A DNA stretch of 64,000 nt from an uncultured Burkholderiales bacterium. GTDB taxonomy: Bacteria; Pseudomonadota; Gammaproteobacteria; Burkholderiales; Burkholderiaceae_C. The translations under genes and the position numbers were made by a program. The number at the start of each line of letters is the position of its first letter. The first letter of the stretch is position 1. The stretch is from positions 1 through 64,000 of the forward strand of contig CAIZSE010000087.1 in NCBI GenBank assembly GCA_903935585.1, read 5' to 3'. This document shows, in pieces, positions 7,988 through 21,500 of the stretch. The notes below the pieces were generated by a model. That model saw nothing but the letters and a program-made list of their open reading frames with translations. It was not told the DNA's origin and did no database searches.

Positions 7988-8355
7988 ACGGCGCAGTGTT
8001 GTGGTGAGTCGGCTTGGCTGAAATTGACGCTGCAAAAAGTGTGGCACGTTTTATTTCGCGGCTACTTTTGTGGGCTGTAACTTGTCGATTTAAAAGGAAA
8101 ACGCCAGGCGCTCACGTTGAAAATCTGCGTGTCGATGCTTCGATTTCGCCCCAGGCCACTGGTTTTACACCGCAGTTTCGCAAGAGGCGGCGGTGTTTTG
8201 CTTTGTGGGGCCAGCGAGGCACACAATTGGCCAATGTCGTGCCTACTTGCTTCACGCTGTGGGGCTTGCTGAGTGAGGCAGCCACCACACATTCCTTCGT
8301 ATTTAGACAACGAACGACATGCGGATGGGAAAAAGTCTGCGTTTGTAAAAACCCC
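7988..8355. other. 368-bp stretch without a supported gene
   Basis: Between the FAD monooxygenase and the Lrp gene, which converge on it. Open frames exist on both strands but lack ribosome sites and family features; the longest plus-strand frame runs into the antisense of the Lrp gene. No tRNA or strong terminator is evident. This probably marks the left edge of the high-GC block. Confidence 0.5.
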
Positions 8356-8832
8356 TCATTCGACGGCAATCAAAGGGCTGCCGTCGACAGGCACGGCGGT
8401 GGAGTACTTGATCTCCTCCATCGCAAAGCTAGAACTGACGTCGAACATTTCCACCGAGTGGATCAGCTTGTGATAGACGGCATCCAGTCCCTCGATGTCG
8501 CGTACCACAACACGCAGCAGGTAGTCGATCTCACCGGTCATCCGATAGACCTCGACGATTTCGGGGATCCGTTGCACCGCAGCAGCGAACCGTTCTAGCC
8601 AAATGGCATTGTGCTGGTTGGTGCGTACCGTGACGAAGGCGACCGCCCCGTAGCCCATCTTCTTTGGATCACAGAGAACGACCTGCTTGCGGATGACGCC
8701 ATCTTTCTTCAACCGCTGAATCCGCTTCCAGCACGGCGTTGCCGAAAGGTTCACTGCCTCGGCAATTTCTCCGATGGGCATTGAGGCGTCATTCTGTAGC
8801 AATTGCAGAATTTTCCGATCAGTAGCGTCCAT
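8356..8832 (-). CDS. Lrp/AsnC-family transcriptional regulator
   Basis: A 158-residue feast/famine regulator. An N-terminal HTH (MDATDRKILQLLQND, then GEIAEAVNLSATPCWKRIQR) is followed by the RAM ligand domain with MTGEIDYLLRVVVRD. The ATG at 8832 gives the standard start (M-D-x-T-D-R-K-I-L); the 39 extra codons further upstream are untypical. It is divergent from a PLP C-S lyase gene, the arrangement seen for cysteine-responsive Lrp relatives such as DecR/CyuR and their desulfhydrase genes. It is the most likely regulator of the island and its ligand may be an amino acid. Confidence 0.93.
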   Translation of the reverse strand: MDATDRKILQLLQNDASMPIGEIAEAVNLSATPCWKRIQRLKKDGVIRKQVVLCDPKKMGYGAVAFVTVRTNQHNAIWLERFAAAVQRIPEIVEVYRMTGEIDYLLRVVVRDIEGLDAVYHKLIHSVEMFDVSSSFAMEEIKYSTAVPVDGSPLIAVE

Positions 8833-9003
8833 TGAGTGCACCCTAATTTGTGGAATAAAAATCTCTTCGGAGGGGTAATTGAGAGAGAAAAAGAGACGAA
8901 ATTCTCCTCCTGCCCTGATAGCATTCTTACATGACAAAATAAAAACCATCGTCGCTATTGCATGAATGCGAGGGTGTGCATGACCAGACTACACAGGGAC
9001 ACA
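8833..9003. promoter_or_regulatory. divergent control region between lrp-like and C-S lyase genes
   Basis: An AT-rich 171-bp divergent intergenic region. It contains an imperfect inverted repeat: GGAGGGGTAATT near 8870 and AATTCTCCTCC near 8901. This suits an Lrp-type regulator acting on both directions. I could not fix -10/-35 boxes with confidence. Confidence 0.35.
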
Positions 9004-10206
9004 ATGGAACGGAAAATTTACCGAGAAGACACCGAGGCCACGCGCGTCGGCAGGGACCGTTCGATATGCGGCCGGTTAGTGAATCCGCCGATCGCGCGGA
9101 CCACCACGGTTCTCGCCAGCAATCTGGCCGAGTGGGAGCAGACCTGCCGCGAGCCGGTTACTGGTGAGCCGACCAAGTACTACGGCCGATTCGGCACCGT
9201 GACCACGCAGGCCCTGGAGCAGGCGATGGTGCAACTTGAGGGAGGGTATCGCGCGATGTTGTTTCCGTCTGGACTGGCGGCCTGTACCCACAGCTTGATG
9301 GCCTTCGCGCGGCCGGGCGACCATGTGCTGATCGTAGACTCGGCTTATGGTCCGGTTCGCCATTTCGCCAACGAGACCCTCATCCCGTTCGGGATCGACG
9401 TGACCTTCTATGATCCGGGCATCGGGGCCGGCATCAATGCGCTTGTGCGTGACAACACTCGGGTGATTTATATGGAGTCGCCGGGGTCGATGAGCTTCGA
9501 GATGCAGGACGTACCCGCGATCTGCGCGGTCGCGAAGCAGCGCGGGATCACCACCCTGATCGACAACACCTGGGCCACCCCGTTCTATTTCAAGCCGCTG
9601 GCGCATGGCGTCGACATTTCAATCCATTCGGCGACCAAGTACATCTGTGGCCATTCGGACACCTTGCTCGGCATTGCAACCTGCAACCGCGAATCGTGGG
9701 ATGCACTGGCCAACAGTGCCAGCAACTTCGGAGAAACGGCCAGCCCGGATGCCGCTTACGTGGCGTTGCGGGGCCTGCGCACGCTGCCGACGCGGCTGCG
9801 CCAGCATCACGCCTCGAGCTTGCAGGTCGCGGAATGGCTGGAGCGCCAGCCTGAGGTGGCGTGCGTCCTGCACCCCGCACTGGCTAGCGACCCCGGCCAC
9901 GCGCTCTGGCAGCGCGATTGCACGGGTGCCAGCGGACTCTTCGCCTGTGTGCTGCATCCAGTGCCCCGCCAGGCGTTTGCTGGGTTCATCGACAGCCTTG
10001 AATTGTTCGGGCTCGGCGTCTCCTGGGGTGGCTACGAAAGCCTTGTGGCGCCCATCAATCTGCGCAACCTTCGCACCAGCACGCGCTGGTCGCACGAAGG
10101 GCCCGCCGTTAGACTTCACGTAGGTCTCGAAGACCCAGAAGACCTGATACAGGATCTTGCTGCATCGTTTAAGCTAATGGAGGCCCTGTGCGCGCGTGCC
10201 GCATGA
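9004..10206 (+). CDS. metC: PLP-dependent cystathionine beta-lyase / Cys-Met metabolism lyase
   Basis: A 400-residue fold-type I PLP enzyme of the Cys/Met metabolism family. The cofactor lysine is Lys212 in SIHSATKYICGHSD. The YYGRFGTVTTQALEQAM stretch supplies the Tyr/Arg phosphate-binding residues and IDNTWATP the pyridine-N aspartate. The SWGGYESL segment near 340 is typical of beta-lyases rather than gamma-synthases. The start at 9004 follows an AGGGA sequence; an in-frame ATG at 8962 is possible. It would split cystathionine or, in this context, L-cysteine or another beta-thio amino acid to pyruvate, ammonia and a thiol. First gene of the rightward island operon. Confidence 0.88.
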   Translation: MERKIYREDTEATRVGRDRSICGRLVNPPIARTTTVLASNLAEWEQTCREPVTGEPTKYYGRFGTVTTQALEQAMVQLEGGYRAMLFPSGLAACTHSLMAFARPGDHVLIVDSAYGPVRHFANETLIPFGIDVTFYDPGIGAGINALVRDNTRVIYMESPGSMSFEMQDVPAICAVAKQRGITTLIDNTWATPFYFKPLAHGVDISIHSATKYICGHSDTLLGIATCNRESWDALANSASNFGETASPDAAYVALRGLRTLPTRLRQHHASSLQVAEWLERQPEVACVLHPALASDPGHALWQRDCTGASGLFACVLHPVPRQAFAGFIDSLELFGLGVSWGGYESLVAPINLRNLRTSTRWSHEGPAVRLHVGLEDPEDLIQDLAASFKLMEALCARAA

Positions 10207-10263
10207 ACGGTTGTGACTGTCATGCGATGACAACCCGGATGCCGCGAAATTCAAGGAGTTTGG

Positions 10264-11577
10264 ATGCCCACTGATTATTCGAATGCTTCTGCAGCGGACA
10301 CGGGGTCTCTCTGGTCCGCGGTTACGCCCGATGACCCTGCGTGTCCGACGTTAAGGGGCAGCGTGCAAGCTGACGCGGTCGTCATAGGCGCCGGTTTTAC
10401 GGGCCTGTCTACCGCGTTAAACCTTCGCAAGGCCGGCGTCGACGTGGTTGTGGTCGAGGCCGCCGAGCCGGGCTGGGGTGCATCAGGGCGCAACAATGGC
10501 CAAGTGATTCCCACGCTGTCCCGCCCCGATCCCGATGACATCGAGGCGCGGCATGGCGAGGCCGGCGAGCGCTTCGTGCACTTGCTGCGCGATTGCGCAT
10601 CGACCTTGTTCGACACCGTTCGTGAACACGGCATCCAGGCCGAGGCCGAGCAGACCGGCTGGGTTCAGCCGGTGCATTCGCCCGGCAGGATGGCAATCGC
10701 CGAACGGCGCTTCAAGCAATGGTCTCAACGCGGCGCGCCTGTCGAGCTGCTTGACGCGGGCCAGGTGCAAAAAATGGTGGGCTCGCAGGCCTGGCATGGT
10801 GGCTTCTGGAATCGAACTGGCGGTCACATCAACCCACTGGCGCTGGCTCGGGGTCTCGCGCGGGCCGCGATCCAGGCCGGTGCGCGGATCTATGCACACA
10901 CACCCGCGATCGAATTTGTACGCCGGGAGGGCTACTGGGTGGTGCGAACGCCCTCGGGCGAGGTGCGTGCACGTGCGCTGGTGCTCGCCACCAATACCTA
11001 CACCGGTGAGTTCTCCAGCGTCCTGGCACCGCGCATCGCTCGCGAGGTGGTGCCCATCCGGTCTTGGCAGATGGCGACTCAGCCATTGCCAGACAGTGTC
11101 CGGGCCACGGTGATCCCCGGTCGTCAAGCGCTCTCTGATACGCATGGCGAGCTGGTTTTCGCGCGTTACGATGCACGCAATCGACTCATCACCGGCGGGG
11201 CGATCTTGCTGCCATTCGATCGCGCCGATCGCCTGAAGGCCGCTGTGGCCGAACGGATCGAGCGGCTGTGGCCTCAGATCGGCAAGGTGCATTTTGAGTA
11301 CATCTGGAACGGCTATGTCGGAATGACCGACGACTTCATGCCGCGCTTTCACCGTCTCGGTCCTGATGCGTGGGCCTGGGCGGGTTGCAATGGCCGGGCG
11401 GTCGGCCTGTCGATCGCGTTGGGCGGGGAATTCGCGAAGGCCGTGCGCGGGGTGCCCGACCGTGAGCTGGCTCTGCCGTTCACCGAGCCGGCACCACTAG
11501 CGCTGCACGGCATCGTCCGTCGGGTCGCGCCGCTGATGCTGATGCGCTACCGACGCATGGACCGAACGGAAATCTGA
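10264..11577 (+). CDS. FAD-dependent amine/amino-acid oxidoreductase (DadA/PuuB family)
   Basis: A 437-residue DAO-family flavoprotein with the Rossmann motif GAGFTG (42-47), the glutamate VVVVEAAEPGWGASGRNNG that follows it, and a C-terminal GYVGMTDDFMP plus WAGCNGRAVGLSIALG closing the FAD site. Closest in style to gamma-glutamylputrescine oxidase and D-amino-acid or sarcosine-like oxidases. It starts 57 bases after the lyase stop with an AAGGAG site. It probably oxidises an amine or imino acid; in a thiazoline-acid context it might handle a ring imine, which is speculation. Confidence 0.82.
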   Translation: MPTDYSNASAADTGSLWSAVTPDDPACPTLRGSVQADAVVIGAGFTGLSTALNLRKAGVDVVVVEAAEPGWGASGRNNGQVIPTLSRPDPDDIEARHGEAGERFVHLLRDCASTLFDTVREHGIQAEAEQTGWVQPVHSPGRMAIAERRFKQWSQRGAPVELLDAGQVQKMVGSQAWHGGFWNRTGGHINPLALARGLARAAIQAGARIYAHTPAIEFVRREGYWVVRTPSGEVRARALVLATNTYTGEFSSVLAPRIAREVVPIRSWQMATQPLPDSVRATVIPGRQALSDTHGELVFARYDARNRLITGGAILLPFDRADRLKAAVAERIERLWPQIGKVHFEYIWNGYVGMTDDFMPRFHRLGPDAWAWAGCNGRAVGLSIALGGEFAKAVRGVPDRELALPFTEPAPLALHGIVRRVAPLMLMRYRRMDRTEI

Positions 11578-11601
11578 TCGTAATCAATAGGAGGCCACTG
11601 C

Positions 11602-12453
11602 ATGCTCGCTAGCCTTGAAGGACTCGACCACCTCGTGGTGATGGTCAGCAATCTCGATCGCGCCGCCGACCAATGGCGTGCCTTGGGCTTCACCCTTTCG
11701 CCGCGTGGCACCCACAGTGCCCATTTGGGCACGGGCAACTACACGATCATGTTCGGCGTCGACTATCTAGAATTGCTGGGCGTGCTGAACGATACAGCGC
11801 TGAACGTGCCAAGCCGTGCCTTTCTTGACCGTCGCGGCGAGGGCATCGAGCGCGCAGCCTTCACGACCAGCAATGCTGCGGCCGGCGTGAGCGCACTGCA
11901 GACCCGCGGTATCGACGCAAAGGGTCCGATCGAATTCAGCCGGCCGGTCGATCTGAGCGACGGCCGTCGCGCAGAAGCCGCATTCAGCGTTTTTCATTGG
12001 CCGATCGAACAGCGGCCGGCGGACCTCCGCATTTTTGCCTGCCAGCACCACACGCGCGACACGGTCTGGCTTCCTGAATTGCAGGCGCACCCGAACGGGG
12101 CCACTGGCATCGTGTGCGTCGAAATCGTGACACCTACGCCGGCAGAGGCGGCGACGCAGCTCGCCGGCCTGATCGACGGACTGGCCCAGCCTTGCGACGC
12201 CGGGGTGCGGGTAGCCACCGGGCAGGGCCGGGGCGATTTCTTGTTCCTGACGCACGACACGTTTTTGGCACGCCGTCCCTCAGCACAGCGCGACGCCCTG
12301 CCTGCCGAAGGCGTGGCGGCCCTGGTGCTGCGCGTGACGGATCTGGTCACCGCCGCTCGTTCGGCTGGAGCGGCCGCCGTGGTCGACACGACATCGGTCA
12401 CGGTGCCCGCCGACCGCGCGAGTGGTGCCATGATCGTGTTCGAAGCCTCATAA
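11602..12453 (+). CDS. VOC-family protein, glyoxalase-3-like
   Basis: A 283-residue protein with an N-terminal VOC module (GLDHLVVMVSNLDRAADQW) and a second, weaker one after ~165. This is the layout of PF13468 'glyoxalase-like' proteins, whose reactions are mostly unknown. It follows the oxidoreductase by 24 bases with an AGGAGG-like site and precedes the ABC importer. The first module retains His but the metal site cannot be completed by eye. Confidence 0.72.
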   Translation: MLASLEGLDHLVVMVSNLDRAADQWRALGFTLSPRGTHSAHLGTGNYTIMFGVDYLELLGVLNDTALNVPSRAFLDRRGEGIERAAFTTSNAAAGVSALQTRGIDAKGPIEFSRPVDLSDGRRAEAAFSVFHWPIEQRPADLRIFACQHHTRDTVWLPELQAHPNGATGIVCVEIVTPTPAEAATQLAGLIDGLAQPCDAGVRVATGQGRGDFLFLTHDTFLARRPSAQRDALPAEGVAALVLRVTDLVTAARSAGAAAVVDTTSVTVPADRASGAMIVFEAS

Positions 12454-12503
12454 GCTCATAATCCGAAAATTGTTACTTGAAAATTAACTAACTGGAGACA
12501 AAA

Positions 12504-14108
12504 ATGACATTCACCCGAAGAAACGCACTGCTCACCGGGCCCGCACTGGCCCTTTCTGCCGCGATCCCTGGCGTACTGCAAGCCCAGGCGGTCCCTACAC
12601 CGCGCCGCGGCGGAAGCGTCACCGTGCACATGACCGGCGAACAGCGGGTGCTGAACCCGGCGCTGCGCGCCTCGACCGGCGTCTATGTGATCTCCGGCAA
12701 GATCATGGAAGCGCTGGTCGACCTGGATGCCAATGGCGGCCCGGCCCCGGTGCTGGCCACCGCTTGGAACTCCTCACCCGACGGAAAGACGATCACATTC
12801 ACGCTGCGCGAGGGCGTGAAGTGGCACGACGGCAAACCCTTCACCTCGGCGGACGTGCAGTTCAGCGCGATGGAGATGTGGAAGAAGCACCTGAACTACG
12901 GCACGACGCTGCAGCTCTACCTAGAAGCCGTAGACACGCCGAACGCGAAGACCGCCGTGTTTCGCTACTCGCGCCCGATGCCGCTGGACCTGCTGCTGCG
13001 CGCGCTGGCCGACCTGGGCTATGTCGCGCCGAAACATGTCTACGAAGGCACCAACATCCTCGAGAATCCGGCCAACACCGCGCCGATCGGCACCGGGCCG
13101 TTCAAGTTCTCGAAGTACGAGCGCGGCCAGTACGTCATCGCAGTGCGCAACGAGAACTACTGGCGCGCGGGCTTTCCTTATCTTGACCAGATCATCTGGC
13201 GCTTCGTGCCCGACCAGGCCGCCGCCGCGGCCGCGATGGAGTCCGGGCAGATCCAGATCAGCCCCGAAGGCGGCTTCGCACTGTCCGACCTCAACCGCCT
13301 GAAGAAGGGCAACACCTTCGAGGTCTCGACGCGGGGCAACGAGGGCAACGCGGTGATGAACACCATCGAGTTCAACCACCGCCGCAAGGAACTGGCCGAC
13401 CGCCGGGTACGCGAAGCCATCGTGCGCGCAACCGACGTCAACTTCTTCTGCGAGAACTTCCTGTACGGATTCGCCAAGCCCGCAACCGGTCCTTATCCCG
13501 CCACGTCGCCGAAATTCTTTGCGAAGGACGTTCCGCGCTACCCTTTCGACAAGAAAAAGGCCGAAGCGTTGCTCGACGAGGCCGGCTACAAGCGCGGCGC
13601 CAACGGGCAGCGCTTCTCGCTGCGGCTGGTGCCGGCGCCCTGGGGCGAAGACATCGCGCTGTGGGCCACCTTTCTGCAGCAATCGCTGCAGCAGGTGGGC
13701 ATTGGCATCGAGATCGTGCGCTACGACGCCGCGGGCTACCTCAGCAACGTTTACAAGGACTGGAACTTCGACCTCGCGACCGGCTGGCACCAATACCGCG
13801 GCGACCCGGCCGTTTCTACCACCGTCTGGTACCGCTCGGGCAGCCCCAAGGGCTCGCCCTGGACCAACCAGTGGGGCTGGGAGTCGGCGGCCATCGACAA
13901 GCTGATCGACTCGGCGGCCTTCGAGATCGATCCGGCCAAGCGCCGCAAGCTCTACGGCGACCTGGCCACCGCGGTGAATACCGAGATTCCGTTGTGGATG
14001 TCGATCGAACGCCTGCTGATCTCGGTCACCAACAAGTCTCTGCAGAACCACCACAACCAGCCGCGCTGGATCTCCAGCAGCTGGGCCGACCTCTGGCTAA
14101 AGGTTTGA
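12504..14108 (+). CDS. ABC transporter substrate-binding protein, family 5 (peptide/nickel type)
   Basis: A 534-residue SBP_bac_5 receptor. The N-terminus has a twin-arginine-like start (TRRNALL), a hydrophobic core and an AQA cleavage site near residue 29. The mature region shows the hallmarks WKFREGVKWHDGKPF-like (TLREGVKWHDGKPFTSADV near 103), PIGTGPFKF (near 196) and WGWESAAIDKLI near the end. Family members bind peptides, glycosides, nickel chelates or modified amino acids, so the ligand is open. The two permeases follow at once. Confidence 0.93.
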   Translation: MTFTRRNALLTGPALALSAAIPGVLQAQAVPTPRRGGSVTVHMTGEQRVLNPALRASTGVYVISGKIMEALVDLDANGGPAPVLATAWNSSPDGKTITFTLREGVKWHDGKPFTSADVQFSAMEMWKKHLNYGTTLQLYLEAVDTPNAKTAVFRYSRPMPLDLLLRALADLGYVAPKHVYEGTNILENPANTAPIGTGPFKFSKYERGQYVIAVRNENYWRAGFPYLDQIIWRFVPDQAAAAAAMESGQIQISPEGGFALSDLNRLKKGNTFEVSTRGNEGNAVMNTIEFNHRRKELADRRVREAIVRATDVNFFCENFLYGFAKPATGPYPATSPKFFAKDVPRYPFDKKKAEALLDEAGYKRGANGQRFSLRLVPAPWGEDIALWATFLQQSLQQVGIGIEIVRYDAAGYLSNVYKDWNFDLATGWHQYRGDPAVSTTVWYRSGSPKGSPWTNQWGWESAAIDKLIDSAAFEIDPAKRRKLYGDLATAVNTEIPLWMSIERLLISVTNKSLQNHHNQPRWISSSWADLWLKV

Positions 14109-14109
14109 C

Positions 14110-15087
14110 ATGACTGTCCTGGCACTGGCGCTGCGGCGCTTGGCTGCGAGCGTGCCGACCCTGCTGATCATCCTAGCCGGCCTGTTCCTGCTGCTGCAGT
14201 TGGCGCCGGGCGACACGGTCGACGCGCTGGTGGCCCAAATGGGCGGCGGCGACGCGGCGATGATCGAGCAGTTGCGGCAGTTCTACGGCCTGGACGCCTC
14301 GGTGCCGGTGCAGTTGGGGCGCTACCTGTGGCGGCTGGTGCAGCTGGACCTGGGCTACTCGGCGATCTACGCCAAGCCGGTGCTCGACGTCATCCTCGAG
14401 CGCCTACCGGCGACGCTGCTGCTGATGGTCTCGGCGCTGTCGTTTGCCTTCACCGCCGGCCTGGTGCTCGGCGTGCTGGCGGCGCGGCGCGTCAATCACT
14501 GGCCCGACACGATGATCTCGACGCTGGGCCTGGTCTTTTACGCCACGCCGTCGTTTTGGTTCGGGCTGATGGGCATCGTGCTGTTCTCGATCCACCTGGC
14601 CTGGCTGCCATCGGGCGGCTTCGAGACCATCGGCAGCGGGCTGACCGGGTTGGCACGTGTGCTAGACATCGCGCGCTTCCTGGTGCTGCCGACGATGACG
14701 CTGGCGCTGGGCTTCCTGGCGGTCTACCTGCGCATCATGCGGGCGTCGATGCTGGAGGTGCTGAGCCTGGACTTCGTACGCACCGCACGCTCCAAGGGAC
14801 TCGCTGAGACCGCCGTCGTGGTCCGCCATGTGCTGCGCAACGCGCTGCTGCCGATGGTCACCCTGGTCGGGCTGCAGGCCGGCACGATGCTGGGCGGGTC
14901 GGTGGTCGTCGAGAGCGTGTTCGCATTGCCGGGCCTCGGTCGCCTGGCCTACGAGTCGGTCGTGCAGCGTGACCTCAACACCCTGCTGGGCATCGTCTTC
15001 ATCTCGGCGGTGCTGGTCATCGTCATCAACTTCATCGTCGACTTGGCCTATGCGCGGCTCGATCCGCGCATAGGCGCCGGCCGCTAG
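14110..15087 (+). CDS. ABC transporter permease, DppB family
   Basis: A 325-residue inner-membrane permease with six predicted helices. It carries the EAA loop region typical of peptide importers (FVRTARSKGLAETAVVVRHVLRNA-type, near 230) and the C-terminal VVESVFALPGLGRLAYESV signature. The start lies one base after the binding-protein stop. It forms a heterodimer with the next gene product. Confidence 0.93.
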   Translation: MTVLALALRRLAASVPTLLIILAGLFLLLQLAPGDTVDALVAQMGGGDAAMIEQLRQFYGLDASVPVQLGRYLWRLVQLDLGYSAIYAKPVLDVILERLPATLLLMVSALSFAFTAGLVLGVLAARRVNHWPDTMISTLGLVFYATPSFWFGLMGIVLFSIHLAWLPSGGFETIGSGLTGLARVLDIARFLVLPTMTLALGFLAVYLRIMRASMLEVLSLDFVRTARSKGLAETAVVVRHVLRNALLPMVTLVGLQAGTMLGGSVVVESVFALPGLGRLAYESVVQRDLNTLLGIVFISAVLVIVINFIVDLAYARLDPRIGAGR

Positions 15088-15093
15088 CACCGC

Positions 15094-15924
15094 ATGAGAT
15101 TCCTTCGCCTTTACCTTCGCAATCCGGCGGCCCTTATCGGGCTGGTGCTGCTCTTCTTGGTGCTGTTCCTCGCCGGCTCGGCCGACCTGTTGTTTCCAGG
15201 CGACCCGCTGAGCCTGGCCGGCCGGCCACTGTCCTGGCCGCTGTCCAACCCGCGCTTCCCGCTCGGCACCGACTCGTCGGGCCGCGACATCGCCGCGCAG
15301 ATCTTCCACGGCGCACGCATCTCGCTGCTGATCGGGGTGGCCGCCACGCTGATCGCGATACTCGTAGGCACGGTGATCGGCGCCGTCGCCGGGTTCTACG
15401 GTGGCTGGACCGACGATCTGCTGATGCGCATCACCGAGGCCTTCCAAACCGTGCCGAGCTTCCTGCTGCTGCTGGTGCTGGTGGCCGTCTTCGGCTCGAA
15501 CCTGCTGACGGTGACGCTGGCCATCGGCGTGGTCTCCTGGCCGGCGCCCGCGCGGCTGACCCGGGCCGAGTTCCTGTCGCTCCGCAACCGCGAGTTCGTA
15601 CAAGCCTGCCGCACGCTGGGCCTGCGCGACAGCGCGATCATCTTTCGCGAGATCCTGCCCAACGCAATGCCGCCGCTGATCGTCTATGCCAGCGTCGTGA
15701 TGGCCACCGCGATCCTCATGGAGAGCGCGCTCGCCTTCCTGAGCCTGTCGGACCCGAACGTCGCCTCCTGGGGCAACCTGATCGGCCAGGGCCGCGGCGT
15801 GCTTCGTACCCAGTGGTACGTGTCGGCGATCCCCGGCGCGGCCATCCTGCTCACGGTTCTGGCGGTGTCGCTGGTCGGCCAGGGCCTAAACGACGCGCTG
15901 AACCCGCGACTGAAATCCCGATGA
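15094..15924 (+). CDS. ABC transporter permease, DppC family
   Basis: The 276-residue second permease. It has the DppC-type N-terminal helix, the motif LGTDSSGRDIAAQIFHGARI (near 60) that defines this subfamily, and the EAA loop FVQACRTLGLRDSAIIFRE (near 167). It starts six bases after dppB-like and overlaps the ATPase gene by four bases. The overlaps point to a stoichiometric operon. Confidence 0.93.
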   Translation: MRFLRLYLRNPAALIGLVLLFLVLFLAGSADLLFPGDPLSLAGRPLSWPLSNPRFPLGTDSSGRDIAAQIFHGARISLLIGVAATLIAILVGTVIGAVAGFYGGWTDDLLMRITEAFQTVPSFLLLLVLVAVFGSNLLTVTLAIGVVSWPAPARLTRAEFLSLRNREFVQACRTLGLRDSAIIFREILPNAMPPLIVYASVVMATAILMESALAFLSLSDPNVASWGNLIGQGRGVLRTQWYVSAIPGAAILLTVLAVSLVGQGLNDALNPRLKSR

Positions 15925-17609
15925 GCCGCCTAGATCCCAGCCCCGCCGCCGACCTGCCGGCTCCGATCCTGCGCCTGGACGGGCTGAGCGTACGCCTGCC
16001 GCGCAACGCCGAGCGCGAACACGCCATCCTCGACGTCAGCCTGGCGCTGGCACCCAACGAGATCCTATGCGTCGTTGGCGAGTCGGGCTCGGGCAAGTCG
16101 ATGACCAGCAGCGCCATCATGCGTCTGCTGCCGCCCGGCGTAGTGGCCGACCACGGTTCCATCGTCTTCGACGGCCGCGACCTGCTGAAGCTGAGCGAGG
16201 CGCAGATGCGAGAGGTGCGTGGGGCGCAGATCGCGATGGTCTTCCAGGAGCCGATGACGGCGCTGAACCCGCTGCACACCGTGGGGCAGCAGATCGGCGA
16301 AATGTTCCGCATCCACACCGCCTTCGGTGTCGACGTCATCGAGCAGCGCGTGCATGCGCTGCTCGATGAGGTGCGCATGCCCGATCCGCAGGCCGCGGCG
16401 GGCGCCTATCCGCACGAACTGTCAGGCGGACAGCGCCAGCGGGCCATGATCGCAATGGCGCTTGCGCTCGAACCCCGGGTGCTGATCGCCGACGAGCCGA
16501 CCACCGCGCTCGACGTCACCACCCAGGCGCAGATCCTACGCCTGATCCGCGACCTGCAGAAGCGCAAGAGCACCTCGGTGCTATTCATCACCCACGACTT
16601 CGGCGTCGTCGCCGAGATCGCCGACCGCGTCGCCGTGATGCAGCAGGGCCGCCTGGTCGAACAGGGGCCGGCGTCGCAGGTGCTCAATGCCCCGCGCCAC
16701 GCCTACACGCGGCAGCTGATCGGCGCGGTACCGTCGCTAACGCCGCCCGCATCGCGGCCGGCGGTGCCTGGCGGCGCGGTGCCGGCGCTGGTGGTGGAAG
16801 AGGTCTCGAAGACCTACCGCACCGGCGGCTTCCTAGCCCGCGGCGCCCGCGTCACCAAGGCGCTGGATCATGTCTCGCTGGAACTGCCCAAGGGCGCAAC
16901 GCTAGGTGTGGTCGGCGAATCGGGCTCGGGCAAGTCGACGCTGGCGCGCTGCATCGTGCGCCTGATCGACCCAGACGGCGGGCGCATCATGATCGACAAC
17001 CTTGACCTGGCCGCGATGTCGCACCGCCAAGTCCGGGCCGCCACGCAGCGCGTGCAAATGGTATTCCAGGATCCCTACGCGTCGCTGAACCCACGCCGGC
17101 GTGTCGGCGAGTTGGTGGCGCAGGGGCCGATGGCGCACGGCGTCAGCCGCCGCGAGGCGATGGCCAAGGCGCTGTCTCTGCTTTCGCTGGTGGGCCTTGA
17201 CCCGGCGGCCATCGACCGCTTCCCGCACGAGTTCTCCGGTGGCCAGCGCCAGCGTATCGGGCTGGCACGCGCGCTTGCCCTAGACCCCGAGATCCTGATC
17301 GCCGACGAGCCGGTCTCGGCACTTGACGTCTCGGTGCAGGCGCAGGTGCTAGGCCTTCTCGAGGACCTCAAGCAGCGGCTCGGGTTGTCGATGCTGTTCG
17401 TCACGCACGACCTCCGGGTGGCCGCGCAGATCTGCGATGTGGTGGTCGTGATGAAGGCCGGAAAGATCGTCGAAGCCGGTCCCACCGCCCAGGTTTTCAC
17501 GAATCCGCAAGCCGAATACACACGCGCACTGCTCGAGGCCATTCCGGGGCGCGAATGGTCCGCACACGCAGCGCCAGAACAAAACCACCACAAAGGAGAA
17601 TTGACATGA
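15921..17609 (+). CDS. ABC transporter ATPase, fused DppD-DppF (double ABC)
   Basis: One 562-residue polypeptide carrying both nucleotide-binding domains of a peptide-type importer. The first has Walker A GESGSGKS (53-60) and LSGGQRQRA; the second has Walker A near 332-339 and FSGGQRQRI. Each has an IADEP Walker B and ends in an oligopeptide-transporter C-terminal extension. Fusion of DppD and DppF is known in GsiA-type importers (glutathione uptake), interesting given the sulfur-linked neighbours. The ATG at 15921 overlaps the permease stop; further-upstream in-frame codons fall inside the permease gene. Confidence 0.93.
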   Translation: MSRLDPSPAADLPAPILRLDGLSVRLPRNAEREHAILDVSLALAPNEILCVVGESGSGKSMTSSAIMRLLPPGVVADHGSIVFDGRDLLKLSEAQMREVRGAQIAMVFQEPMTALNPLHTVGQQIGEMFRIHTAFGVDVIEQRVHALLDEVRMPDPQAAAGAYPHELSGGQRQRAMIAMALALEPRVLIADEPTTALDVTTQAQILRLIRDLQKRKSTSVLFITHDFGVVAEIADRVAVMQQGRLVEQGPASQVLNAPRHAYTRQLIGAVPSLTPPASRPAVPGGAVPALVVEEVSKTYRTGGFLARGARVTKALDHVSLELPKGATLGVVGESGSGKSTLARCIVRLIDPDGGRIMIDNLDLAAMSHRQVRAATQRVQMVFQDPYASLNPRRRVGELVAQGPMAHGVSRREAMAKALSLLSLVGLDPAAIDRFPHEFSGGQRQRIGLARALALDPEILIADEPVSALDVSVQAQVLGLLEDLKQRLGLSMLFVTHDLRVAAQICDVVVVMKAGKIVEAGPTAQVFTNPQAEYTRALLEAIPGREWSAHAAPEQNHHKGELT

Positions 17610-18133
17610 GCCAAGTGCCGTCCACCCACCCGCAGAACCTGTCCATGCTGGCCAAGCGTCGCATCGAGGCCGAGATCCTTGGGCACGTCTACGAAGTGCT
17701 CAAGGCCAGCCACGGCAAGGAGGCGGCGATGCAGGCCGTTGGAAACGCGGTGCGCCGCTCCTCTATTGACCAGGCCCAGCGCTTTGCCGCGGAGACGGGA
17801 GGTCCGACATCGCTGCAGAGTTTTATCGATATCAGCGCGCTGTGGGAGAGCGAGGATGCGCTGAAAATCGAGGTGCGCAAGAAGACCGACACGGAGTACG
17901 TGTTCGACGTCGTGCGCTGCCGCTATGCCGAGATGTACAAGGCGATGGGCCTGGGCGAGATTGGCCACCTGCTGTCCTGCCAACGCGACGGTACCTTCTG
18001 CGAAGGCTACGACCCGAAGCTGAAGTTCGCGCGTACCCAGACCATCATGCAGGGCGCGAGCCACTGTGATTTCCGCTATTCGTATGAAGCCGATGGCGCA
18101 GAGACCGCACCTTCGCGCGACGCCACCAGCTGA
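17606..18133 (+). CDS. L-2-amino-thiazoline-4-carboxylic acid (ATC) hydrolase family protein
   Basis: A 175-residue protein matching the ATC hydrolase family (PF14196). The C-terminal half shows the pattern CRYAEMYKAMGLGEIGHLLSC, then RDG.FCEGY.P.LKF.RTQT, then GASHCDFRY. The conserved Cys, Asp, Arg and His positions (CRYAE, SCQRDG, ARTQTI, HCDF) are the family core. In Pseudomonas, ATC hydrolase opens the thiazoline ring of L-ATC to S- or N-carbamoyl-cysteine on the way to cysteine. The family is broad, so the true substrate may be another cyclic amidine or thiazoline. It overlaps the ATPase stop by four bases. Confidence 0.78.
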   Translation: MSQVPSTHPQNLSMLAKRRIEAEILGHVYEVLKASHGKEAAMQAVGNAVRRSSIDQAQRFAAETGGPTSLQSFIDISALWESEDALKIEVRKKTDTEYVFDVVRCRYAEMYKAMGLGEIGHLLSCQRDGTFCEGYDPKLKFARTQTIMQGASHCDFRYSYEADGAETAPSRDATS

Positions 18134-18151
18134 TCGATCACCGGAGTTCCC

Positions 18152-19267
18152 ATGCAACCTGTCAGCATCGCACTCGCCAGCTCCTGCTTCAGCCCGTCCT
18201 ATGCCAGTGCACGCGGCCGTTTCCTGCTTGCCGCCGACCGCGCGGGCGCGCGTTTGGACATCTTCACGAACACCGTGGCCAGGGGGCCAGATGGCGGAAC
18301 GCTCACGACCGACGTCGCCGTGCTCGGACCGCCGGATGCGCAAAACGCTTTGGTGATCGTCAGCGGCACGCACGGCCCCGAGGGCTTCGTTGGCTCGGCT
18401 GCGCAGATCGCGCTGCTCGATGCGCTGGCGACCCAAGCGCAGGCCCTTGATGTGCGTGTCGTGCTGGTGCATGCGATCAATCCGTGGGGCTTCGCCCACA
18501 TCAGCCGCACCACCGAAAACAATGTTGACCTGAACCGCAATTTCATCGACTGGCGGTCGCCGCCGCCGGCCAATCCGCCCTATGCAGATCTGCATCCCCT
18601 GCTTTGCCCCTCGGAATGGTCGCCCCAGGCGATCGAAGCCGCCAATGCGGGACGGGATGCCTGGACCGTGAAGCACGGTCTGGACGCCTACGTCAACGTG
18701 ACCAGTCGCGGCCAGTACAGCCACCCGGATGGCTTGCACTATGGCGGCATTGGCCGCGAATGGTCGAACCTGACCCTCGAAACGATCATTGAGCGCCATC
18801 TCGATGGCGTCAAGCGGATCGCGCTGATCGACTGGCACACCGGACTCGGCGAACCAGGCGAGCCGTTCTTCCTGTGCTTCAACGAGCGCGGCGGTCCGGG
18901 CTGGGAACGGGCCTGCGGCTGGTGGGGTCGTGAGAGCGTCGAGACCAAGGGCGGCTTCGAGGGCGCGGGCCGGCCCAGCTATTCTGGCCTGCTGTTCCAT
19001 GGTGTACAGCAGTTCGCCCCCGCGGCCGAAGTGACCGGTGCGGTCATCGAATTTGGCACCCGAAGTCGGGCCGAGATGCGTTACGCGCTGCAGATCGACC
19101 ATTGCCTGCGGTTCGACGCCACCCTTCCCAAGTCGCAACATGCGGCGATGCGCGAGCAACTGCTGGACGCGTTCTCGCCCTTTTCGCCTGGCTGGCAGCG
19201 CAGCGTGCTCGGCCACGCGATCGCAATCCAGCAGCAGGCGCTCCAGGGTGCGGCCGGCTGGCGCTGA
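18152..19267 (+). CDS. DUF2817 protein, M14 carboxypeptidase/deacylase-like
   Basis: A 371-residue DUF2817 protein with a zinc carboxypeptidase (M14-like) core: His74 and Glu77 in GTHGPEG, Asn128-Arg129 in DLNRN for carboxylate binding, His229 in DWHTG as third ligand and Glu300 in VIEFGT as catalytic base. No signal peptide, so it is cytoplasmic and would act after import. Such enzymes remove a C-terminal residue or an N-acyl group. With the importer and ATC hydrolase homologue it may free an amino acid from the imported conjugate. It starts 18 bases after the ATC-hydrolase stop. Confidence 0.78.
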   Translation: MQPVSIALASSCFSPSYASARGRFLLAADRAGARLDIFTNTVARGPDGGTLTTDVAVLGPPDAQNALVIVSGTHGPEGFVGSAAQIALLDALATQAQALDVRVVLVHAINPWGFAHISRTTENNVDLNRNFIDWRSPPPANPPYADLHPLLCPSEWSPQAIEAANAGRDAWTVKHGLDAYVNVTSRGQYSHPDGLHYGGIGREWSNLTLETIIERHLDGVKRIALIDWHTGLGEPGEPFFLCFNERGGPGWERACGWWGRESVETKGGFEGAGRPSYSGLLFHGVQQFAPAAEVTGAVIEFGTRSRAEMRYALQIDHCLRFDATLPKSQHAAMREQLLDAFSPFSPGWQRSVLGHAIAIQQQALQGAAGWR

Positions 19268-19324
19268 TGCGCGGCGCCTTGAGGCGGCCCGCCACGCCCG
19301 ATCTCTTCTCTACCAAAGTTCATC

Positions 19325-20956
19325 ATGAAAAACAGCTCTGGCGCGACGCCTGATAAGACCTTTGACGTCATCGTGGCGGGTTCGGGCGCGGCAGCACTGA
19401 CGGCGGCCCTGACCGCGGCGGTGGCCGGATTGAAGGTTCTGGTGCTGGAGAAATCCTTGCTGCTGGGCGGAACGTCCGCCATGTCAGGGGCGGGGATGTG
19501 GGTGCCAGCCAATCATCTGGCAGCGGCCGCCGGCTTCCAGGACAGCCCGCAGGAAGCCTTGGCCTATTTGAGGAGCGCGTCGCCGGCCGACTGGCGGTCG
19601 ACGGAAGATCCCTTGTGGCAGCGCTTCACCGAGGAGGCGCCGAACATGCTCGCGTTCGTGGAACGCCACACCCCGCTGCGCTTTTCGCTGACCAATGAGC
19701 CCGACCCGATGGCCGAGCACGAGGGCGGCAAGCTTGAGGGGCGCATGGTGTCGCCCAAGCTGCTGAGCCGTCGCCTCGTGGGCCAGTATGCGCGCCGCTT
19801 GCGGCCGTCGACGATGTCGCACCTGTTCACCTACAACGAGATGAGGTCGACCGGCATCTACACCCGGCCCGTGCGCGCCATCGTGTGCATGCTTCCCAAA
19901 CTGCTGTGGCGCGCGCTCACTCGCCGCGCGGGGCAAGGCAGCGCGTTGATCACCGGCCTGCTGAAGGGCTGCCTGGATCACGGATGCCGCGTCGAGACGT
20001 CGGCCCGGGTTTTAGACCTTTTGGTCGACGACGCTGCCGGGCGCATCGTCGGCGTGCGGGTGCAGCAGGGCGGCGAAACACTTGACTACTACGCCAGGCG
20101 CGGCGTCGTGCTGGCCACCGGCGGCTTCGAATGGGACGAGACGCTCAGGCAAACCCATTTTCCAGGCCCGCTAGACCGGCTCGGCAGCCCTCGCACCAAC
20201 GAGGGCGATGGCCAGCGCATGGCTCAGAAAGTCGGAGCGCGTCTGGATCGCATGGACCAGGCCAATGTGTATCCGACGCTGCCCACGGTCTACGAAGGGA
20301 AACCTCACGGGTTGCCCTTTCCCTTTCAGGCCTTTGCGCATGCGATCGTGGTGGATCGTCACGGGCGCCGCTTCGTCAGTGAAAGCGATTACAACATCGG
20401 CGAGCATCTGGACAGGCGCAACGCGGATGGTTCATCTGTGCATCTGCCGGCCTATGTCGTCGCTGACGCACGGTTCATGAAGCACTCGCTGCCCTTCCGG
20501 TGGTTCGCGCGCAAGCAGCCGGGTTGGGTACACAGTGCGCCCACCCTGGCAGAACTGGCCGTTCGGTTGGGCTTGCCGGTCTCATCGTTGCAAGACACCG
20601 TGTCTCGCTTCAACGGTTTTTGCGCACAAGGCAAAGACTTGGATTTCGCGCGTGGCGAAAGCGTGTGGGAACGCTTCCAGTCGAGCGGAAAAGTCAACTG
20701 GGGACGCGTGGAGCAAGGGCCTTTTTTCGGCATGTCGATCAACCGGTCCATCCTCGGAACCAAAGGCGGACCTCGCACCGACCCCGGAGGCCGGGTGCTG
20801 CGAACCGATGGCAGCGTGATCAAGGGGCTCTACTGTGCGGGGAACGCAATGGCCAACCCCATCGGCACTCGCGCAGTGGGTGCCGGCACCACGATCGGCC
20901 CGTGCATGACCTGGGGCTTCATCTGCGCAAGCTCTGCGGTCAGCGAGATTGGATGA
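19325..20956 (+). CDS. FAD-binding dehydrogenase (3-ketosteroid-1-dehydrogenase/fumarate reductase-like)
   Basis: A 543-residue flavoprotein with the N-terminal FAD motif VAGSGAAALTAAL, GGTSAMSGAGMWVPAN near 47, and the C-terminal LYCAGNAMANPIGTRAVGAG block. This is the signature set of FAD_binding_2 dehydrogenases such as KstD and other Delta-1-dehydrogenases. They desaturate a C-C bond beside a carbonyl or reduce an enone. Last intact gene of the high-GC island; a decayed GST gene begins right at its stop, so this marks the island's right edge. Confidence 0.85.
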   Translation: MKNSSGATPDKTFDVIVAGSGAAALTAALTAAVAGLKVLVLEKSLLLGGTSAMSGAGMWVPANHLAAAAGFQDSPQEALAYLRSASPADWRSTEDPLWQRFTEEAPNMLAFVERHTPLRFSLTNEPDPMAEHEGGKLEGRMVSPKLLSRRLVGQYARRLRPSTMSHLFTYNEMRSTGIYTRPVRAIVCMLPKLLWRALTRRAGQGSALITGLLKGCLDHGCRVETSARVLDLLVDDAAGRIVGVRVQQGGETLDYYARRGVVLATGGFEWDETLRQTHFPGPLDRLGSPRTNEGDGQRMAQKVGARLDRMDQANVYPTLPTVYEGKPHGLPFPFQAFAHAIVVDRHGRRFVSESDYNIGEHLDRRNADGSSVHLPAYVVADARFMKHSLPFRWFARKQPGWVHSAPTLAELAVRLGLPVSSLQDTVSRFNGFCAQGKDLDFARGESVWERFQSSGKVNWGRVEQGPFFGMSINRSILGTKGGPRTDPGGRVLRTDGSVIKGLYCAGNAMANPIGTRAVGAGTTIGPCMTWGFICASSAVSEIG

Positions 20957-21303: not shown

Positions 21304-21500
21304 ACAAAGCAGGTCATAACAACAAGTTGGCTTTCTGCCCGTTGTCTAGGAAGCGTCTGAGCGCCAGCCTTAGCCTCAGGATGTCCATGCTCCGGGTCGT
21401 GGGCAAGCCCTCCGACATATGGGCTCGCTGCTCGCTGAGCCAGGTGTGCAGTTTGTTCACGAAACCCTCGATGCGAGCGAAGATTTCTGACTGCATCCCA

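Follow-up and report, generated by a model that had tools for sequence, protein, structure and literature searches.

A conserved importer-linked gene cluster with PF14196 and DAO-type proteins in a Burkholderiales bacterium, a candidate pathway for cysteine-aldehyde rings

The window analyzed here is a 64,000-nucleotide stretch of an uncultured Burkholderiales bacterium (assembly GCA_903935585.1, contig CAIZSE010000087.1), in which an operon with a divergent regulator gene occupies positions 8356 to 20956. The operon is real and conserved, and probably a single-purpose catabolic system. It encodes, among others, an ABC importer, a DAO-family flavoprotein, a small PF14196 protein, a DUF2817 protein and a pyridoxal-phosphate (PLP) C-S lyase, and as a conserved functional unit these very likely yield cysteine. 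More tentatively, and with a likelihood that we put a little short of an even chance, the operon would serve the uptake and catabolism of thiazolidine-4-carboxylates, the rings formed from cysteine and aldehydes; we infer both the substrate and every reaction from the sequence.

In the proposed order of events, the family 5 importer would take up the thiazolidine-4-carboxylate ring, and the DAO-type flavoprotein would oxidize the secondary amine of the ring to give a thiazoline-4-carboxylate. The PF14196 protein would then hydrolyze the C=N bond of the ring to an N-acyl-cysteine (N-formyl-cysteine in the case of the formaldehyde adduct), from which the DUF2817 protein, a putative M14/AstE-type zinc hydrolase, would strip the acyl group. 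Finally, the C-S lyase would split cysteine into pyruvate, ammonia and sulfide, with an Lrp-type regulator in control. We propose a route through an oxidized thiazolidine because the type of deacylase is telling: opening of L-2-amino-thiazoline-4-carboxylate (ATC) should leave a carbamoyl group, whereas a thiazoline without the 2-amino group, as formed by thiazolidine oxidation, should leave an acyl group.

An earlier note, written from the same DNA, had described the region as an uptake and breakdown system for a cyclic or conjugated sulfur amino acid. Its general outline is retained here, with an importer, a likely sulfur ring, cysteine as product and DUF2817 as a hydrolase, but not its strict ATC hydrolase or the part that it gave to the terminal dehydrogenase.

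Recurrence of the gene set and two kinds of PF14196 locus

A scan of 84,980 species genomes identified 330 PF14196 relatives; the analysis retained the 80 best loci. The order DAO, solute-binding protein (SBP), permease B, permease C, ATPase, PF14196 recurs in Zeimonas arvi, in metagenome-assembled genomes (MAGs) of a Rhodospirillales and an Ideonella member, and in G502, a relative of Z. arvi; where the window has a VOC gene after DAO, these four have no VOC match. The Z. arvi locus also possesses the Lrp and C-S lyase genes, and Lautropia and Castellaniella MAGs show the same gene order interrupted by contig ends. An Agrobacterium plasmid brings together Lrp, VOC, SBP, two permeases, fused ATPase, DAO, PF14196, M20 aminoacylase and a Cds1-like enzyme (L104), and plasmids of Sagittula and Pseudosulfitobacter carry a similar set, with an enzyme of class V that weakly resembles SufS. 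Azospirillum TSH58 encodes Lrp, Rid, a Cds1-like enzyme, PF14196, a Liv importer, a further PF14196, M20 aminoacylase and DAO, parts of which are found in other Azospirillum plasmid records. DAO, a divergent second PF14196 gene, a Liv-type importer and PF14196 are found in three Chelatococcus genomes and one Hyphomicrobiales MAG, and in one Hyphomicrobiaceae MAG DAO lies directly 5' of PF14196. Judged by this gene content, the genes form a conserved unit, beyond chance, across Beta- and Alphaproteobacteria. The PF14196 neighborhood search that the earlier note had proposed thus recovers SBP_bac_5 importer, DAO and PF14196 together in more than one class, and the conservation of the gene set across both classes favors its idea of a single uptake-and-breakdown system.

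Other arrangements were also encountered. Two Phreatobacter genomes and a Hyphomicrobiales MAG next to them in the tree (3/3 viewed) have DAO, VOC and importer genes clustered apart from a solitary PF14196 gene. Reyranella-type genomes (L022-L092) have a solitary PF14196 gene beside argC-like, lipase-like and hemD-like genes. Canonical-looking loci occur on a Shinella plasmid (PF14196, carbamoylase-type M20, Cds1-like), in Sinorhizobium meliloti (racemase family, PF14196, M20), and in Aminobacter and Kosakonia. The Kosakonia PF14196/carbamoylase locus has a Liv-type importer of its own, and the importer can no longer be counted, as it had been, among the differences from the canonical ATC kind.

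By gene content, two kinds of PF14196 locus can be told apart: one with a carbamoylase-type M20 amidohydrolase and without DAO, the other with DAO and an acyl-deacylase, which is DUF2817 in the window and its near kin and an M20 aminoacylase elsewhere. Rather than standing for a new category, the operon represents a variant of the PF14196 pathway. To score contexts, 120 loci were fetched with flanks; a PF14196 row was obtained from 117 of them, but not from the three distant loci L145-L147. Adding the window gave 118 loci, which collapsed to 56 groups at 90% identity, each represented by one locus, and this left a DAO at 36% in L034 uncounted. Neighboring genes up to 9.5 kb away were counted at identity thresholds of our choosing, with probes drawn from the loci themselves, and contigs ending early were scored as lacking the gene, including that of L019, the sole deacylase locus without DAO. 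An M20 aminoacylase or DUF2817 was present at 10/14 DAO loci versus 1/42 loci without DAO (Fisher 2.8e-7), a carbamoylase-type M20 at 0/14 versus 12/42 (p 0.026), and a PLP enzyme of cysteine type at 7/14 versus 1/42 (p 1.0e-4). When the identity threshold was moved from 30 to 50%, the deacylase counts stayed at 8-10/14 versus 1-2/42 (p 2.8e-7 to 1.7e-5) and the carbamoylase counts at 0/14 versus 11-12/42. Two near misses at the 45% threshold, both without DAO (an M20 aminoacylase at 43% in L118 and a C-S lyase at 44% in L107), would, if counted, replace 1/42 by 2/42.

The association was also seen from the DAO side. Among 24 plasmid records matching the DAO (E <= 1e-80; 15 from Azospirillum), 21 have PF14196 at most 7 kb away; for the three Shinella records, its absence was read from the organism tally in two cases, and one region was viewed. 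In 399 Burkholderiales genomes, our own included, PF14196 was found in 4 of the 7 with a DAO of at least 47% identity, a threshold set after the list was seen, versus 7 of the 392 others (Fisher 1.1e-5). On this co-occurrence evidence, DAO is the key partner and tracks with the deacylase type, a point that the earlier note missed. The stronger generalization that every PF14196 gene belongs to a DAO pathway was rejected. At 68 of the best 80 loci, of which 19 lie on stretches shorter than 12 kb, no DAO, deacylase or carbamoylase was recognized in the surrounding 9.5 kb, and a DAO search of 32 genomes gave none above 39% (E <= 1e-60) in the 23 that were neither DAO-linked nor members of the Phreatobacter group.

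The PF14196 protein and the deacylase slot

The window's PF14196 protein matches its profile with 129.6 bits (curated cut-off 28.1) and falls in a 7-row clade (starred in the tree) in which six rows have DAO (L016 and L133 being one genome) and L015, on a contig that ends early, has DUF2817 only. None of the 14 carbamoylase-linked rows lies in this clade or in the surrounding 10-row clade; 12 of them lie outside the surrounding 83-row group and two (L086, L094) inside it. DAO loci are scattered over several places of the tree, and the DAO-PF14196 partnership, as far as the tree tells, therefore arose or was lost more than once.

These placements bear on the canonical use of ATC, in which ATC would be imported, PF14196 would act as a true ATC hydrolase forming carbamoyl-cysteine, DUF2817 would be the carbamoylase, and DAO would handle a side product such as D-cysteine. 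PF14196 is named for ATC hydrolase activity, and relatives at about 50% identity do lie beside carbamoylase-type M20 genes, once with a racemase-family gene. We nevertheless regard this account as quite improbable for the window: DAO and carbamoylase never co-occur (0/14 versus 12/42), the window protein stands outside the carbamoylase-linked groups, DUF2817 resembles M14 peptidases and deacylases, and the M20 aminoacylase matches TIGR01891 and not the carbamoylase model. Among the genes at 8356-20956, Pfam and NCBIfam scans detected no M20 carbamoylase-type amidohydrolase. A role of the window protein as a strict ATC hydrolase, as the earlier note had assumed, is unlikely because of its position outside the carbamoylase-linked groups; a family tree placing it apart from active ATC hydrolases had been named there as contrary evidence, and the tree goes part of the way towards that.

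Eight PF14196 residues (C105, C125, C154, T146, G134, G150, A22 and A41) are invariant in 49/49 aligned rows, window included, and the three cysteines are also kept in the second Azospirillum/Chelatococcus paralogs, which share 16-22% identity with the window protein. Cys105, Cys125 and Cys154 may build a metal site. The divergent second paralogs themselves were located in the Liv-type DAO operons (L111:3768-4280, L120:3672-4181, L036:4763-5206). The predicted model (pLDDT 90.8) matches, by Foldseek, TRAPP Bet3 and the V4R domains of MopR, DmpR and PoxR, with a V4R/TRAPP fold match at an E value of 5.8e-5, whereas profile comparison gave a probability of just 0.5%. The likeness to the V4R phenol-sensor domains (E 8e-5, TM ~0.55) is one of predicted fold and found no support at the sequence level, where hhalign against four V4R proteins reached 0.5% although the C-terminal motif was in register. 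In an alignment by eye, what we take to be the V4R zinc ligands seem to be replaced by Arg143 and Thr146 in PF14196. Sequence searches of the PDB with PF14196, as a single sequence or a profile, returned 0 matches.

The slot after PF14196 is taken by DUF2817 in the window and by an M20 aminoacylase at other loci; in a scan of proteins from other loci, DoeB2 and EutA models appeared as sub-cut-off matches. The DUF2817 protein (Pfam profile match 369 bits) conserves H74, E77, N128-R129, H229 and E300 in 16/16 aligned proteins, of which H74, E77, H229 and E300 presumably form the HxxE...H zinc motif and catalytic Glu of the M14 pattern. In a Foldseek search, zinc carboxypeptidases matched its predicted model (pLDDT 91.9; best E 4.3e-7, TM 0.46/0.54), and members of the AstE/AspA family were among the matches. 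With moderate confidence, we expect DUF2817 to act as a deacylase; the cleaving hydrolase that the earlier note saw in it agrees with the predicted fold, the zinc-type residues and the slot. In open-access literature the word DUF2817 turned up only in work on trypanosomatid TFIIIC. The genome that holds the window has another DUF2817 gene (G000:C12:25809-26828, L148), which lies 12 bp from an open reading frame (ORF) that by eye resembles an M20 amidohydrolase.

Flavoprotein, lyase and importer, and the layout of the locus

The best NCBIfam match of the DAO is the L-pipecolate oxidase AmaA (263.8 bits, below the cut-off of 600), and its relatives of solved structure comprise dimethylglycine dehydrogenase, sarcosine oxidase, glycine oxidase, D-arginine dehydrogenase and L-amino acid deaminase. 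In the DAO tree, the window belongs to a 27-row clade with 100/100 support, apart from 23 paralogs, and composed of 20 PF14196-linked rows, three of the Phreatobacter group and four without PF14196; the rows were picked through PF14196, which makes the plasmid DAO search the less biased test. We give the DAO an even chance of being the ring oxidase. VOC relatives share 41-52% identity in Agrobacterium, Sagittula and Phreatobacter, 61% in G751 and 57% in G610, and none was detected at eight other DAO loci tested (L016, L017, L018, L134, L082, L036, L111, L120; 0/8). As a guess, VOC might be an epimerase.

Several observations weigh against a thiazolidine-specific pathway. DAO-family genes within 9.5 kb of PF14196 in L020 (30%) and L034 (36%) fall outside the clade and were counted as paralogs, and the solved relatives of the DAO are distant by sequence (best 48 bits) and include primary-amine enzymes. 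In G751 a run of genes (L246:2504-13156) encodes a Liv importer, UroD-like, Dak1, Dak2, DAO, VOC and DUF2817 proteins, the last three at 61-68% identity to the window, yet the genome has no PF14196 match (E <= 1); G503 and G670 likewise encode a same-clade DAO (47-49%) and no PF14196. In a Shinella cluster, it is a hydantoinase/oxoprolinase that accompanies DAO and a weakly related VOC (31%). No deacylase was seen beside the scanned unlinked Phreatobacter DAO cluster, which is followed downstream by NAPRTase and short-chain dehydrogenase (SDR) genes. No recognized deacylase is present at 4/14 DAO loci, and VOC occurs at only 4/14. On the PF14196 side, 2/10 rows in the window's clade lack this DAO type nearby, these partners are missing throughout a sister clade (51 rows, for the most part from Alphaproteobacteria), and a gene family resembling argC is found in 42 of the best 80 loci. 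Moreover, PF14196 might bind rather than catalyze, because its predicted fold is known from ligand sensors and TRAPP subunits.

Since the DAOs of G751, G503, G670 and Shinella come without PF14196, a wider role of the DAO in ring or secondary-amine breakdown is suggested. This leads to the main rival, a general pathway for cyclic or secondary amines with no tie to sulfur, in which DAO, with or without VOC, would oxidize N-heterocycles or N-alkyl amino acids, DUF2817 would cleave the resulting amide and PF14196 would be optional. The relationship to pipecolate oxidase, the DAO-VOC-DUF2817 run beside dihydroxyacetone-kinase-like genes and the Shinella combination of DAO, VOC and oxoprolinase all fit it, whereas the cysteine-type PLP enzymes at half of the DAO loci (7/14) and the linkage of 21/24 plasmid DAOs to PF14196 do not; we consider it somewhat unlikely. 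The Shinella cluster itself, on a plasmid of S. sumterensis (L258:4542-9985), encodes DAO (42%), VOC (31%), ABC importer genes, a hydantoinase/oxoprolinase pair and DUF1028, and is perhaps a parallel ring-opening pathway.

The cysteine end of the proposed thiazolidine route draws on the lyase. The window enzyme exceeds the NCBIfam cut-off for cystathionine beta-lyase (459.5 versus 365.9 bits), and the MetC-like protein is kept in Z. arvi at 52% identity. In G502 (L134), a Cds1-like gene (59% to that of Agrobacterium), divergent from DAO at a distance of about 180 bp, replaces it. Cds1-like enzymes at other loci approach the 600-bit cut-off of the L-cysteine desulfhydrase Cds1 model, with 562 and 533 bits, the SufS-like match is weaker (146 bits, cut-off 475), and one Azospirillum locus adds a Rid protein. 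By family assignment, three unrelated kinds of cysteine-type PLP enzyme, MetC-like, Cds1-like and SufS-like, occupy the lyase position; cysteine, already named in the earlier note, is a likely product. Lrp relatives (47-54% identity) accompany loci of the same kind in Zeimonas, Azospirillum, Martelella and Agrobacterium, and the regulator probably senses cysteine; a search of open-access literature on cysteine-responsive Lrp regulators returned nothing usable.

In the importer, the SBP has 57-62% identity to its Agrobacterium and Phreatobacter partners and the fused ATPase 59% to that of Agrobacterium. The importer type is exchangeable, Liv-type amino acid importers taking its place in Azospirillum and Chelatococcus loci. 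Because Liv-type importers replace the family 5 type, the substrate would be small and amino-acid-like. This argues against the conjugate route of the earlier note, in which a peptide-like or conjugated sulfur amino acid would be imported, cut first by DUF2817, and the released ring opened by PF14196. The many peptide-binding proteins among the solved relatives of the SBP and the carboxypeptidase-like predicted fold of DUF2817 speak for such a route; together with the exchangeable importer, the M20 aminoacylase in the DUF2817 slot elsewhere leaves it very improbable.

All 11 genes were confirmed as open frames with Pfam or NCBIfam matches (Table 1), and the gene list of the earlier note holds, mostly as described. 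The ten genes from C-S lyase to terminal flavoprotein share one orientation and are spaced by -4 to 57 bp, in agreement with the close spacing noted before, and the Lrp gene, whose start at 8832 is a probable one of our choosing, diverges 129 bp upstream of the C-S lyase. The "high-GC island" of the earlier note describes the ten operon genes (GC 0.625-0.681; whole window 0.603) but not Lrp (0.553). The terminal flavoprotein resembles 3-ketosteroid dehydrogenases most closely (351.5 bits and so under the cut-off of 788, in the NCBIfam scan only); an operon-wide role for it was considered and dropped, and with it the emphasis previously placed on it, as no match was found at other loci.

Table 1 Genes of the cluster at positions 8356 to 20956 of the window.
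Feature	Position	Strand	Basis and remarks
Lrp/AsnC regulator	8356..8832	-	Pfam; divergent from operon
PLP C-S lyase, MetC/cystathionine beta-lyase family	8962..10206	+	Cys_Met_Meta_PP, NCBIfam; proposed cysteine-destroying step
DAO-family flavoprotein, pipecolate/proline-type	10264..11577	+	Pfam, NCBIfam; proposed thiazolidine ring oxidase
VOC protein (Glyoxalase_3)	11602..12453	+	Pfam; DAO partner at some loci only
SBP_bac_5, family 5 solute-binding protein of importer	12504..14108	+	Pfam
Importer permease B (BPD_transp_1)	14110..15087	+	Pfam
Importer permease C (BPD_transp_1)	15094..15924	+	Pfam
Fused two-domain importer ATPase (DppD-DppF type)	15921..17609	+	Two ABC_tran stretches (Pfam)
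PF14196 protein, 175 aa	17606..18133	+	Pfam; 4 bp overlap with ATPase gene; proposed thiazoline ring hydrolase
DUF2817 protein	18152..19267	+	Pfam; M14/AstE-like predicted fold; proposed N-acyl-cysteine deacylase
3-ketosteroid-dehydrogenase-like flavoprotein	19325..20956	+	NCBIfam; same transcription unit by spacing

The PF14196 gene is the sole match to the family in its own genome (E <= 0.001). When the protein was compared with 60 genomes, own included, six gave a match: its own, four of 35 of the same genus (43-47% identity) and one of the same order (35%). No close copy was found in the 35 genomes of the genus searched, several of which are incomplete. As only these four carry a match, all at 43-47%, the cluster appears accessory in the genus. 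The nearest sister identified, G011 with 94% DNA identity, could be aligned only from window base 21483 onward, to the right of the cluster, where its contig begins; an accessory island is thus likely, although no empty insertion site was seen. At three PF14196 loci of the genus that were viewed, one of them scanned, an SDR-like ORF adjoins the gene in a different context (L009:11210-12670, L010, L011; 44-47% to the window). The intergenic stretch 8115-8353 at the left edge of the cluster is single-copy in the window, has no Rfam match, and is in parts present at 74-91% identity in 4/6 genomes of the genus searched; an Rfam scan of the whole window gave 0 matches.

Significance and comparison with known systems

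Thioproline is the stable adduct of formaldehyde and cysteine. Extended to this class of compounds, our reading would describe a bacterial pathway dedicated to ring adducts of cysteine with aldehydes (thioproline and its relatives substituted at position 2), coupled to an importer and carried on Alpha- and Betaproteobacterial chromosomes and plasmids, with PF14196 as a V4R-type binding fold turned thiazoline hydrolase and DUF2817 as an N-acyl-cysteine deacylase. We offer this wider picture as possible, if doubtful, and think it unlikely that the formaldehyde adduct is the main natural substrate. Thioproline is described as driving formaldehyde toxicity in E. coli and not in Methylobacterium extorquens (PMC13131673, preprint), and bacterial thioproline oxidation is described via the general proline enzyme ProC (PMC12899673). 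The open-access literature, to which the search was limited, yielded no dedicated bacterial thioproline operon in print. If the proposal is true, an operon dedicated to uptake and breakdown would represent a further salvage route for sulfur, nitrogen and C1 units, DUF2817, listed as of unknown function, would gain a first, testable one, and the automatic annotation of many "ATC hydrolases" would be corrected.

The Pseudomonas pathway from ATC to cysteine is described with both N- and S-carbamoyl-cysteine as intermediates, and a desulfhydrase then degrades cysteine (PMC10821248). The window resembles this pathway of racemase, hydrolase and carbamoyl-cysteine amidohydrolase in its succession of a ring hydrolase and an amidohydrolase, with cysteine as an end product that is broken down. 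It differs in having DAO, importer, VOC and a DUF2817 that replaces the carbamoylase, in the absence of a racemase gene, and in a PF14196 protein from another group of the tree.

Ectoine breakdown uses a ring hydrolase followed by an AspA/AstE-type or an M20-type deacetylase. Like the proposed pathway, it leads from a ring to an N-acyl amino acid and fills one slot with two unrelated deacylase types; unlike it, it involves another ring and another ring-opening family, and is not known to include a DAO.

A parallel in reaction order is mammalian. Rat proline oxidase is reported to start a conversion of thiazolidine-4-carboxylate via thiazoline-4-carboxylate and N-formyl-cysteine to cysteine and formate (PMC2645137). 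The step from thiazolidine-4-carboxylate to N-formylcysteine is also stated for bacteria and mitochondria in a further source, which adds that N-formylcysteine forms in plain buffer from cysteine and formaldehyde (PMC9814826). The order of reactions that we propose is the same; where the mammalian route relies on a general proline enzyme and a cytosolic hydrolase, however, the window would provide a dedicated operon with its own importer.

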